DNA of 36,413 nucleotides from Desulfovibrio sp. GTDB lineage: Bacteria; Desulfobacterota; Desulfovibrionia; Desulfovibrionales; Desulfovibrionaceae. Both the position numbers and the translations under genes were made by a program. Below are positions 9,476 through 28,331 of the stretch, one piece after another; the stretch's first letter is position 1, and every line of letters starts with the position of its first letter. The stretch is from assembly GCA_031276485.1 (NCBI GenBank), contig JAISMY010000087.1:1-36413 (forward strand), given 5' to 3'. Below the pieces are notes generated by a model. That model was not told where the DNA came from, made no database searches, and saw nothing but the letters and a program-made list of their open reading frames with translations.

Positions 9476-9747
9476 TACTGCAAAAGCCTTTTTTCCGAAA
9501 CATGGCCGAAATCGGCGTTGTCCAACGTATCTTTGAGTTCAGAGAGGAAACGCCCGGTAGCCGCCTCTATCCGACAGACGTCCTGTTCGTCGACGCTGAC
9601 GTGCTCAAGACGCGCCACCACTTTCTTGAGAACCGAAAATTCGTTCTGCAGCGCCGGTCCGAGGTGCGTACGGTCGAGGTCGTTTTCAAGTTCCAGAATG
9701 GTAACAAGGCAGTTGCGCAGGCGACTGTCCAAATGGCCGATATTCAT
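9475..9747 (-). CDS. Small helical protein of unknown function in pgsA-ftsB cluster
   Basis: A 90-residue soluble, mainly helical protein (MNIGHLDSRLRNCLVTILEL...) with no signal peptide, membrane helix or recognised motif. Its start overlaps the pgsA stop (ATGA) and its stop overlaps the ftsB start (TAATG). It is therefore locked between two real genes by translational coupling, which is strong support that it is expressed. An amphipathic helix pattern over 12-75 (LENDLDRTHLG, EFSVLKKVVARLEHV, FLSELKDTL) suggests a helical bundle or coiled coil. A role in division or membrane biology is only implied by the neighbours. Confidence 0.8.
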   Translation of the reverse strand: MNIGHLDSRLRNCLVTILELENDLDRTHLGPALQNEFSVLKKVVARLEHVSVDEQDVCRIEAATGRFLSELKDTLDNADFGHVSEKRLLQ

Positions 9748-21440: not shown

Positions 21441-21490
21441 TTGACAACGAATGTCTTGACCTTGCCTGCGCGTCCGGATCCGGAAAAATT

Positions 21491-21635
21491 TTTATCTATG
21501 GATAGATACAATCATGGTAACGTCCAAAAATTACAAGTTGTTCCGAGCTGTGTCGAGGTGTTGGGAAACATCCTGACAACATGCTGATTTTATAATATTT
21601 TTGTGCAGAAAATCTATCCGTTGATGTACACTCTC
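21491..21635 (+). repeat. Structured ~146-bp repeat, copy A
   Basis: Copy A of an element whose reverse complement is at 26565-26710, with roughly 85-90% identity by eye and almost no gaps. It carries GGATAGAT near one end and ATCTATCC near the other, which could pair. A central hairpin GGTGTT-GGGA-AACATC (21557-21572) has a GNRA-type loop. It lies between the 3' ends of the phosphoesterase gene (plus) and a glycosyltransferase (minus). A+T content is far above the surroundings. Confidence 0.85.
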
Positions 21636-25535: not shown

Positions 25536-26471
25536 TCAGGTTCGCTTCGCTGCCGGCAGGGAGGCTGTTTTTGCGCGGATGCCCGCGGCCGAGCGGGCCA
25601 CAGCGTCTTTTTCCTCGTCCGAGAGGTCAAGTACGATGATGTTTTCAACGCCGCGCAGGCCCAGACGCACCGGCACGCACATGAAGATGCCGTCAATGCC
25701 GTACTCCCCGTTCAGGTACGCCGAGCAGGGGAGGATGTCTCCCTTGTCGCGGAGTACCGCTTCGGCCATGACCGCCAGCGCCGCCCCAGGCGCGTAGTAG
25801 GCCGACGAACCCAGATATTCCATAATCCTTGCGCCGCCGAAGACGGCGTTGCTGCAGGCCTGTTCCGTCTGTTCCCCGGTCAGCAGCAGGCCGGCGGGCA
25901 GCCCGGCGACCTGTGAGAGGCGGGGCAGGGGCACCATGCCGTCGCCGTGCTCGCCGATGACCAGTCCCTGGACGGCACGGCCGGGCACGTTCGCCGCGCG
26001 AGCCGTCTCCGCGCGCAGCCGCGCCGTATCAAGCACTCCGGACAGCCCGATAATCCGCCGGGTATCATCAATACCCGCGCGATGCGCGGCCATGCACATG
26101 ACGTCCACGGGGTTGGCCGCTATGATGAAGACCGCGTGCGGCGAATATTTGAGGGTTTTTTGTATTATCTGCCCGACGATGTCCGCGTTGACCATGATCA
26201 GGTCGTCGCGGCTCATCCCGGGTTTGCGGGGTACTCCGGCCGTGACGACGACAATGTCGGAGTGGGCGGTGTCGTCATACTCGGAGCTTCCAGTGACGAT
26301 GCAACCGTGTCCTTCCAGCACGGCCGCCTGGCTGAGGTCAAGGGCTTTGCCCCGCGGGATTTTTTCGTTTATGTCCAGCAGCACCACATCGCCGAGCCCG
26401 CGCATGAGGCAGGCGTGAGCCGCGCTTCCGCCGACGTTTCCGGCGCCGACAACGGTAATGGTATGTCGCAT
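25536..26471 (-). CDS. mdh: NAD-dependent malate dehydrogenase (LDH-like type)
   Basis: Interconverts malate and oxaloacetate. The 311 residues have the Rossmann motif VGAGNVGG (6-13), DINEKIPRGKALDL, VVTAGVPRKPGMSRDDL with the Arg typical of malate rather than lactate specificity, ANPVDVM, GLSGVLDTARLR and catalytic GEHGDGMVPLP. The length and motifs fit the MDH group related to lactate dehydrogenases. ATG 26471 is preceded by AAGGAGAAG. The C-terminus ends 33 bases from the MITE-like element. Upstream lie copy B of the 146-bp repeat and the small membrane-peptide genes in the same direction. Confidence 0.95.
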   Translation of the reverse strand: MRHTITVVGAGNVGGSAAHACLMRGLGDVVLLDINEKIPRGKALDLSQAAVLEGHGCIVTGSSEYDDTAHSDIVVVTAGVPRKPGMSRDDLIMVNADIVGQIIQKTLKYSPHAVFIIAANPVDVMCMAAHRAGIDDTRRIIGLSGVLDTARLRAETARAANVPGRAVQGLVIGEHGDGMVPLPRLSQVAGLPAGLLLTGEQTEQACSNAVFGGARIMEYLGSSAYYAPGAALAVMAEAVLRDKGDILPCSAYLNGEYGIDGIFMCVPVRLGLRGVENIIVLDLSDEEKDAVARSAAGIRAKTASLPAAKRT

Positions 26472-26564: not shown

Positions 26565-26710
26565 GAGAGTGTACGTCAACAGATAGATTTTCTACGCAAA
26601 AATATTATAAAATCAGCATATTGTCATGATGTTTCTCAACACCTCGACACAGCTCGGAAAAACTTGTAATTTTTTGACGTTACTATGCTTATATCTATCC
26701 ATAGGTAAAA
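26565..26710 (-). repeat. Structured ~146-bp repeat, copy B (inverted relative to copy A)
   Basis: The reverse complement of copy A. The terminal GGATAGAT is kept, and its partner is ATCTATCT, still able to pair with one G-U. The hairpin is GGTGTT-GAGA-AACATC (minus strand, 26643-26628): same stem, and a loop changed from GGGA to GAGA, both GNRA. It follows the tiny 29-residue gene and precedes mdh, all on the minus strand. Confidence 0.85.
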
Positions 26711-26733
26711 ACTCTCACGCTTTTTTCGTATGC

Positions 26734-26823
26734 TTATTTGAGCCGGCCTTTTTTATCCGCGTATATAGCGATAACGCCGATGATAACACAAACAATGCCG
26801 GCAATCCAAATACCACTATTCAC
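26734..26823 (-). CDS. 29-residue single-pass membrane peptide
   Basis: A very short gene encoding MNSGIWIAGIVCVIIGVIAIYADKKGRLK: one hydrophobic helix (about 5-21) followed by a basic tail, so the C-terminus is predicted cytoplasmic. The start is GTG, overlapping the stop of the 61-residue gene by eight bases. AGGAG lies eight bases upstream, inside the end of that gene. The overlap, ribosome-binding site and clean membrane-peptide composition support a real gene. The function is unknown; type I toxin-like peptide, accessory subunit of the larger partner, or small stress membrane protein are all possible. Confidence 0.65.
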   Translation of the reverse strand: MNSGIWIAGIVCVIIGVIAIYADKKGRLK

Positions 26824-27001
26824 GGCTACCGCTCCTTTTCGCAAAATACTGCGGGAAGAACAGGCATATCAGGCTGAACGCGATAGCCGCGCCTGAGCTT
26901 TTGTCTGAGAGAAACGCGCCGACCATAAAAGCCGCGCTTATCTTCTCAAACCAGTCCGCAAGGCGTTTTTTCTCAAACCAGTCCGCAAGGCGTTTCAGCA
27001 T
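26816..27001 (-). CDS. 61-residue membrane protein with duplicated amphipathic N-terminus
   Basis: Small protein with an N-terminal amphipathic helix made of two tandem copies of KRLADWFEK (residues 3-20). A hydrophobic region follows (about 21-51, ISAAFMVGAFLSDKSSGAAIAFSLICLFFP) that could form two short membrane helices, then a basic tail FAKRSGSRE. The peptide duplication comes from a 27-bp tandem repeat (26943-26969 and 26970-26996, 26 of 27 identical). ATG 27001 is preceded by GGAGGGCGGT. The frame stays open for 37 codons upstream with no ATG, GTG or TTG, which may mark a decayed longer gene. It forms an overlapping pair with the 29-residue gene. No family is recognised with confidence. 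Confidence 0.7.
   Translation of the reverse strand: MLKRLADWFEKKRLADWFEKISAAFMVGAFLSDKSSGAAIAFSLICLFFPQYFAKRSGSRE
26943..26996 (-). repeat. 27-bp tandem duplication inside the 61-residue gene
   Basis: Two adjacent 27-bp units differing at one base. The unit length is a multiple of three, so the duplication repeats nine residues and keeps the frame. It is probably recent slippage. Confidence 0.9.
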
Positions 27002-27233
27002 ACCGCCCTCCAGTTCAGAGTTAACCGCTTTTTCGGCATCTGTCCATTGGACCCCCGGACCCTCGCCAAGCCGGGCATGCGTCCCGGCCCTGATTATGCG
27101 TTTCCTTAACGTCTAAACATGGAGTGTATTCTCCGCAATTTTCCCTTGTGCCGTCGCATGCGCATGTCTACGCAAAAAACATATTCCGGCTGCACACTCT
27201 TCGCGGTTTCAATCAACACTTCCGTGTTTCCCG

Positions 27234-28331
27234 CTACAGGCCGTACACAGCGCTGCACCACGCGCCGACAACGCACAGCAGCGCCGCCGCGCAGAGGCCG
27301 GTATCGACGCGCCCGCGTGTTTTTTCAGACGCCGCGCGCAGGCGCGCGTCCACAAGCAACAAGGGCAGCCCGACTCCAAGCCCGCATGCAAAACCGAAAA
27401 TGTGCGCCGCGTAATCCGTGCGAACCTCGCCGCCGCCTCCGAGAAAACCCAACAGCGCCAAGCCTGCCGCCAAAGGCAGCGCCCCGGTGCGCAACACCGC
27501 GCCGGCTGCCGGGGCGCCGCCCGTTTCATGCGCCGCCGCAAAGGACCTCACGCGAATCATGTCTCCCGCGCTGAGAACGCACAGTACGCCGAGCGCGCTG
27601 AATAACGCCGTCGAAAACCCCAGGCTGAGTCCCGCTCCGGGGAAAACCGGCCCCAAACGCCCGTAAATCAAGGCGGCGCTCGCGTTGCCCAACGCTCCCC
27701 CGACCATCGCCGCCGCCGTTCCCGCCCCCAATCCGGCACGGCGGCACAGCGGAATAAAGAACAACAACCCGAATCCCACATTGCCGAAAAGATGGCGCGC
27801 GTCGGCATGCAAGGTCAGGGCCGAAACGCACAGCCCCCACGCCCCGCCGCCGCGCACCCGCGCCTTGTCCAACCCGAAAAGCTCCGGCCAAAGCCGCGCG
27901 TCAGCCGGAAACGGCGGGTCCGGCAAGGACACGGCAAACCAATGGAAACGCAACCCGTGCCAGACAACCAGCAAAAGAAAAAAACATATCACCCCGAGAA
28001 CATTGTCCCGCGCCGGCGGGGGCGGCAACAACGGGATTCGCCGCTCCACTTCGCGCTCAAAAGCGCGTATCTCCTCCAGCGCGCGCGCTTCATCCTCAGC
28101 CGGCACATAAAGTTCCCGCGTCGCAGGGGAAAGCACATGCCGAATGTTCTTGGCCGCCAGCACAAGCATGCGCGCATCCAGCGTTTCCGCCGCGACCGGC
28201 CCCGCCGCGGCGGGCTCAACCGTCAGCGGACGCCACTTCCGTTCCCGCGTATCGGACGCCCGCGCCGCGTCCTGCCCCGGTGCGCCTGATTCACCCGGTT
28301 TATTCCGCCTGCGCGGCGGCAAAATCCTCAT
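27234..28331 (-). CDS. Rhomboid-family intramembrane serine protease
   Basis: Polytopic membrane protease of 365 residues. A ~108-residue Pro/Arg-rich cytoplasmic N-terminal part precedes six to seven hydrophobic segments. Catalytic features are present: H175-x4-H180-x3-N184 (HADARHLFGN) in the second helix, nucleophile S240 in GLSLGFSTALF, and H310 in DYAAHIFGFACG. The residue after the serine is Thr rather than the usual Gly of GxSG, so activity is likely but not certain. ATG 28331 has a weak GGTGGAG site. It is divergent from the LIC12162-type gene across a 252-base region with a 26-bp palindrome. The substrate is unknown; a role in surface-protein processing is possible. Confidence 0.87.
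   Translation of the reverse strand: MRILPPRRRNKPGESGAPGQDAARASDTRERKWRPLTVEPAAAGPVAAETLDARMLVLAAKNIRHVLSPATRELYVPAEDEARALEEIRAFEREVERRIPLLPPPPARDNVLGVICFFLLLVVWHGLRFHWFAVSLPDPPFPADARLWPELFGLDKARVRGGGAWGLCVSALTLHADARHLFGNVGFGLLFFIPLCRRAGLGAGTAAAMVGGALGNASAALIYGRLGPVFPGAGLSLGFSTALFSALGVLCVLSAGDMIRVRSFAAAHETGGAPAAGAVLRTGALPLAAGLALLGFLGGGGEVRTDYAAHIFGFACGLGVGLPLLLVDARLRAASEKTRGRVDTGLCAAALLCVVGAWCSAVYGL

Follow-up and report, generated by a model that had tools for sequence, protein, structure and literature searches.

The two overlapping reading frames at positions 26,734 to 27,001 of the window (the whole stretch of 36,413 nucleotides analysed here, from Desulfovibrio sp., a sulphate reducer) form a real bicistron encoding two very small membrane proteins. 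The pair is conserved, its two members stay together, both frames are under selection where close pairs can be compared, and a promoter-like site lies at a set distance ahead of the first gene. These observations strongly support what had originally been predicted from the sequence of the window. Genomes may carry several copies of the pair, and its neighbours include integrases and some defence loci. We tentatively favour the view that it is a mobile accessory cassette acting at the membrane.

The gene pair in the window

Both frames lie on the reverse strand (Table 1). The coordinates and sequences of the 61- and 29-residue products, the 8-nt overlap (26816-26823) and the two Shine-Dalgarno sites all proved to be as described in the original prediction. 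The N-terminal helix of ORF1 carries the motif K-R-x-A-D-W-[LF]-E-K. The promoter-like site ends 17 nt ahead of the ORF1 ATG, and hairpins like the GC-rich inverted repeat beyond it recur upstream of some other copies, as judged by eye and without a control. The genes on either side of the pair encode a rhomboid-family protein (28331..27234) and malate dehydrogenase (26471..25536), and no Rfam match was found in the window. A second ORF1 copy in the same genome (L092, contig C27, approximately 50686-50817) has an in-frame stop and is followed by an intact-looking ORF2.

Table 1. Features of the gene pair and its flanks, in window coordinates
Feature	Position	Strand	Description
ORF1	26816..27001	-	61 aa, stop included in the coordinates; predicted helical-hairpin membrane protein
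ORF2	26734..26823	-	29 codons, GTG start, stop included in the coordinates; single hydrophobic segment, C terminus basic
Shine-Dalgarno of ORF1	27006..27011	-	GGAGGG, read from the sequence
Shine-Dalgarno of ORF2, within ORF1	26832..26837	-	AAGGAG, read from the sequence
Promoter-like site	27019..27046	-	TGGACA (27046-27041), 16-nt spacer, TTAACT (27024-27019)
GC-rich inverted repeat	27070..27088	-	Upstream of the promoter-like site; found by eye, without control
27-bp tandem duplication in ORF1	26942..26995	-	Units 26995-26969 and 26968-26942, 26/27 bases the same
Dispersed repeat of about 150 bp	26565..26711	-	147 nt, directly downstream of the pair; judged outside the module

Genomes of the genus were searched for the same locus lacking the pair. 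Malate dehydrogenase was matched in 6 and the rhomboid protein in 10 of 15 genomes, the window's own included, and no clean empty site was found among these 15. The sequence ahead of the malate dehydrogenase gene in G001 and G002 differs from that in the window, and the gene after the rhomboid gene in G002 is one that we take to be TolQ-like.

Two further features of the window had been noted at the outset. The nine-residue unit KRLADWFEK is indeed repeated head to tail in ORF1, at residues 3-11 and 12-20. Two such units occur in only 1 of 59 ORF1 copies, that of the window, and the duplication is therefore private to this copy and not a feature of the family; it may be genuine or may have arisen in assembly. 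The repeat downstream does adjoin the pair, and an inverted copy (91%) lies at 21489-21635. In the genome as a whole it had 43 matches, with 40 of the 50 candidates scored. About 40 of the 43 are long, they are 79-93% identical apart from the query, and several lie at contig ends. With 43 matches across the genome it is an independent dispersed element, MITE- or REP-like, and was ruled out as a part of the module.

Pairing, selection and transcription signals

Pairing was assessed in 59 ORF1 copies with a usable start, among them the window copy and two identical tandem copies in L066. Twelve ORF1 relatives without an acceptable start had been dropped beforehand, as had duplicates on the same contigs (L005, L006, L007, L059, L062 and L081) or in the same region (L075, which repeats L074); L008 and L010 also stand outside the counts, though both have a pair. 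An ORF2 start was found near the ORF1 stop in 53 of the 59 copies, 28 of them at offset -1 (the ORF2 frame used for L108 in this offset count is wrong, and a better one exists). In a separate test, which demanded a hydrophobic span and a Shine-Dalgarno site with a start between -8 and +25, ORF2 again stood behind 53/59 ORF1 copies, compared with 6/376 control ORFs; the controls were of at least 110 aa and were chosen in the same loci simply as the longest ORFs, so that they certainly include some that are not genes. Of the six copies without ORF2 in the offset count, L014 and L061 are fusions that hold the ORF1 and ORF2 parts in one open frame; in L079 and L111 ORF1 is truncated, and a hydrophobic frame follows at +56 and +65 respectively. 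The others are L109 and one L060 copy.

The original prediction had proposed synonymous-biased substitution as a check on the second frame, and an excess of synonymous change was found in both. Between L055 and L056, pS and pN were 0.49 and 0.03 for ORF1 and 0.54 and 0.08 for ORF2; between L063 and L064 they were 0.75 and 0.08 for ORF1 and 0.73 and 0.17 for ORF2. These two closest informative pairs show purifying selection on both frames. L096 and L097 are too close to be informative for ORF2 (no synonymous and one replacement change), and distant comparisons are saturated in ORF2, as in L021/L055 (pS 0.61, pN 0.60). Frameshifts and loss of conservation, named at the outset as grounds for doubt, are not general; broken copies do occur, with ORF1 split between frames in L084 and L093 and damaged in L111 and L092.

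The divergence of ORF1 was correlated with that of ORF2 (Mantel r 0.51, 0/2000 permutations, 50 pairs), as expected from co-inheritance alone, and the closest relatives of the window copy are L013, L012 and L015 for both genes. A two-component membrane module had been conceived for the pair. Adjacency, co-divergence and the two in-frame fusions support that idea, and any function assigned to such a module is put forward here as a proposal.

Transcription signals were compared with shuffled sequences that preserve base composition only. A promoter-like site ending 14-18 nt before the ORF1 start was present in 28 of 57 distinct copies, compared with 301/2850 shuffles and 49/402 other ORFs. When a score of at least 8 was required, the counts were 18/57 copies, 40/2850 shuffles and 1/402 other ORFs; both this score and the 14-18 nt range were picked after looking at the promoter data. 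For 25 such sites in which the spacer is 17 nt, the consensus reads T-G-G-A-C-A-G followed by ATGG-T-TATCT. This placement would give a leader of only about 8-10 nt. Terminators were found by a strict test in 25/53 copies and in 4/530 shuffles of the same kind, and the window copy has none by this strict criterion.

The topology of the products was predicted from models and charge. AlphaFold2 gave ORF1 as two helices, with the low confidence common to the structure models (pLDDT 71, pTM 0.35). The C terminus is net basic in 49/50 ORF2 and 35/50 ORF1 sequences, and the N terminus of ORF1 is basic in 43/50. The charge pattern suggests that the C terminus of ORF2 is inside, and that both ends of ORF1 are inside too, less uniformly than for ORF2.

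Distribution and genomic surroundings

A single-sequence search of 99 genomes at E≤0.01 gave matches in seven, the window's among them. In the relatives at L005, L006, L007, L008 and L010 the KR-x-ADW-LEK unit occurs once, and another very small hydrophobic frame comes directly after. A profile search at E≤0.01 extended this to 55 of 288 genomes of Desulfovibrionaceae, with up to 8 matches per genome. With a larger profile (A3) at E≤0.001, 59 of 348 genomes of the order matched: 58 of the 288 within the family, counted as records titled Desulfovibrio or Desulfovibrionaceae, and 1 of the remaining 60 (348 minus 288), G708, which has two copies. An even sample of 395 genomes across the phylum, with at most 17 candidates scored per genome, gave seven matching genomes, all of them Desulfovibrionaceae, and no ORF1 relative outside the family. 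Nine loci came from a collection of named sequences. Eight are titled Desulfovibrio, Desulfovibrionaceae or Deltaproteobacteria, and the ninth (L020), an 18-residue match in an Anaerolineae record, was left unused.

Several other candidates were set aside as false or unused. L009 passed E≤0.01, but it is interrupted by a stop and lies across an open frame of 434 aa; L011/L022 coincides with an open frame of 2208 aa that is read in a different phase. Phage matches at E 6 and the best match to a solved structure (E 0.039) were likewise discarded.

No family had been recognised originally, and this was borne out at E≤0.001 in Pfam, NCBIfam and PHROGs. Neither window protein matched anything in these libraries better than E 0.019, nor did 28 ORF1 sequences better than E 0.0099; 30 ORF2 sequences, compared with Pfam only, gave nothing better than E 0.012. 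A literature search found nothing on this gene family, which is weak evidence of novelty as most subscription papers lay outside its scope. Passages in a study of Desulfovibrio piger prophages (PMC12724379) touch on possible superinfection exclusion and on defence islands in general, and not on these genes.

The extent of the shared sequence bears on mobility. L055 and L056 have approximately 320 bp in common, and L096 and L097 approximately 410 bp, around the pair only. In L080 and L083 the common sequence covers the upstream region and no more than 15 codons at the start, and cassette boundaries are therefore not uniform. Tandem pairs of differing sequence occur in L098 (3800-6969), L066 (1-5200) and L101, and L111 (1-8000) contains several fragments and one further pair; the intergenic blocks of these arrays are repeated. 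The L098 array also holds a small CCDC90-like (PF07798) gene. Such rows of small cassettes separated by long repeats resemble integron gene-cassette arrays, but the pair cassettes have their own promoters. The integron reading was rejected, as no integron integrase passed the cut-off in any of 12 genomes; weaker tyrosine-recombinase matches were present in all 12 and in all 14 control genomes.

Among the matches listed for the nearest 208 ORFs (of 209; a 1579-aa ORF at L055 was left out) were at least eight phage integrases, at least two resolvases and many ordinary host genes. Many copies, that of the window included, lie between ordinary host genes. Integrases make up the commonest neighbour cluster, at 9/66 loci, and the next cluster reaches 5/66. 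At six of 66 loci (L012, L014, L061, L063, L070 and L102), in a set that still includes L075, the ORF1 reading frame opens 3-131 nt after the end of a tyrosine recombinase gene on the same strand, a raw count. In four loci measured, 16-78 nt separate the recombinase stop codon from the ORF1 start.

Plausible ORF1 relatives on viral contigs were limited to two, on L021 and L137. L021 also has a T7-type terminase gene. The longer ORF1-like protein on L137 (4176-4433; 86 codons, open at the contig end) was not counted; it adjoins genes that we take to be phage tail and baseplate genes from their resemblance. A tblastn search with the L055 protein at E≤1 gave no match in collections of 50,697 phage and 72,556 plasmid records. 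As phage genes they are therefore atypical.

Defence neighbours were located at four loci, again a raw count. G708 (L142, 7169-19901) has a type III-A CRISPR locus with 22 repeats, Cas1, a RAMP protein, Csm2 and Cas10, in which the pair separates Csm6 from the array. In G224 it is approximately 2.8 kb from a type II Cas9, and its ORF1 is incomplete, with neither the N-terminal motif nor an acceptable start. In G117 the distance to the Hachiman gene HamB is approximately 1.6 kb; Hachiman was found in none of four other genomes checked for it. In L012 it is approximately 2.2 kb from HEC-01B, with an integrase in between. PADLOC neighbours of the types PifA, QatA, SoFic, DndA/SspA and PycC-type cyclase, and several candidate models, were left out of this count.

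Three other observations concern the surroundings. L142 contains two IS1595-type transposase genes encoding identical proteins, and a partial repeat at 9483-9505 beyond the pair. A small regulator-like gene (approximately 95-142 aa) recurs near pairs in L018, L080, L094, L096 and L108; its L096 copy had no Pfam match. tRNA genes lie within approximately 0.7 kb of the pair at 4 of 36 loci scanned (L012, L064, L065 and L073), also a raw count.

A proposed role and its alternatives

From these results we infer the topology of the pair, complex formation, translational coupling and an exclusion function, which together would make up the following scheme. The cassette would be a short transcription unit, driven by a sigma-70-like promoter of its own and closed in many copies by a terminator, from which two membrane microproteins are made by translational coupling. 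ORF1 would be a two-helix hairpin with both ends probably cytoplasmic and a conserved charged N-terminal helix, whereas ORF2 would cross the membrane once and keep its basic C terminus inside. The inner membrane is where the two proteins would most likely come together. As the likeliest benefit, phages or mobile elements would be blocked at the membrane on their way in, by exclusion or by a membrane-acting defence. Such a block would explain why integrative elements and defence islands carry the cassette. The pair may thus be a mobile, moron-type accessory cassette whose hairpin and single-span proteins form a complex that excludes phages or mobile elements, a reading that we prefer and hold as plausible rather than probable.

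By definition, a moron is an accessory gene that brings along both a promoter and a terminator. The pair has both as a family (28/57 and 25/53 copies), and the window copy has a promoter-like site only. Prophage morons and superinfection exclusion genes such as P22 SieA are accessory genes on integrative elements with a membrane product; the pair would resemble them in its predicted membrane location and, at some loci, in its integrase neighbours. Compared with these genes, the pair consists of two overlapping microproteins of approximately 50 and 29 aa, with a putative exclusion function. It also differs from them in being nearly confined to one bacterial family, in forming tandem arrays of diverged pairs and in having no PHROGs match. 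A more specific version, which we consider doubtful, is that the pair is a minimal two-protein membrane defence module of approximately 77 residues, diversified in arrays and carried on integrative elements and in CRISPR or other defence islands, where it might act by itself or provide neighbouring systems with a membrane arm.

The main rival is a membrane-active toxin or abortive-infection pair, in which, as with small hydrophobic toxins, one protein would depolarise the membrane under restraint by the other, or the two would make up the pore together. Sporadic multi-copy spread of tiny hydrophobic proteins, tandem arrays of diverged pairs and defence-locus neighbours would all suit such a pair, and in size, hydrophobicity and tandem multi-copy arrays the family resembles the type I toxins Hok/Gef, Ldr, Ibs, TisB and Fst. 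However, type I toxin mRNAs have long structured leaders that pair with antisense RNA, whereas the leader predicted here is very short and has a ready Shine-Dalgarno site. Moreover, the pair is a bicistron of two conserved frames, with no Pfam match, and relatives of neither ORF1 nor ORF2 match a toxin family. We regard a toxin pair as unlikely.

The proteins might instead serve a membrane enzyme or transporter of the host, as small subunits or as regulators that spread as an accessory trait; CydX, KdpF and AcrZ would be the models. The length of ORF2 is that of CydX-type subunits, a W-I-L sequence starts the span in some ORF2 copies, and a single span with a basic C terminus fits this role, as do near confinement to one family and the housekeeping genes that adjoin several copies. 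Against it, there is no constant partner gene or enzyme among the neighbours, where the two commonest clusters reach only the 9 and 5 loci given above. ORF2, unlike CydX, follows ORF1 and has no Pfam match, and a core subunit would not be so scattered in its occurrence, present in several diverged copies and placed beside integrases. This reading is rather improbable.

Overlapping genes, viral contigs and integrase neighbours could also point to a phage holin and antiholin, or other lysis genes, left in prophage remnants, and the predicted hairpin topology is like that of class II holins. Against this, the pair has its own promoter and often a terminator, ORF1 matches no holin family, and no lysis gene appeared among the 25 neighbour families listed for each batch, of 66 and 101. 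We regard a lysis function as very unlikely. Chance open frames in a non-coding stretch, which the very short length, GTG start and lack of library matches might suggest, were ruled out by the pairing with ORF2 (53/59 against 6/376) and by selection, and are as good as incompatible with a conserved family that has a fixed motif and a promoter.

Desulfovibrionaceae thus possess tiny paired membrane proteins with no match in the libraries searched, in approximately one-fifth of the genomes covered (58/288). Whatever their function, coordinates are now supplied for genes whose small size makes them easy to miss. If the proposed exclusion or defence role is correct, the pair would be a very small anti-phage module, and its many natural variants would serve for studying how two microproteins block entry.
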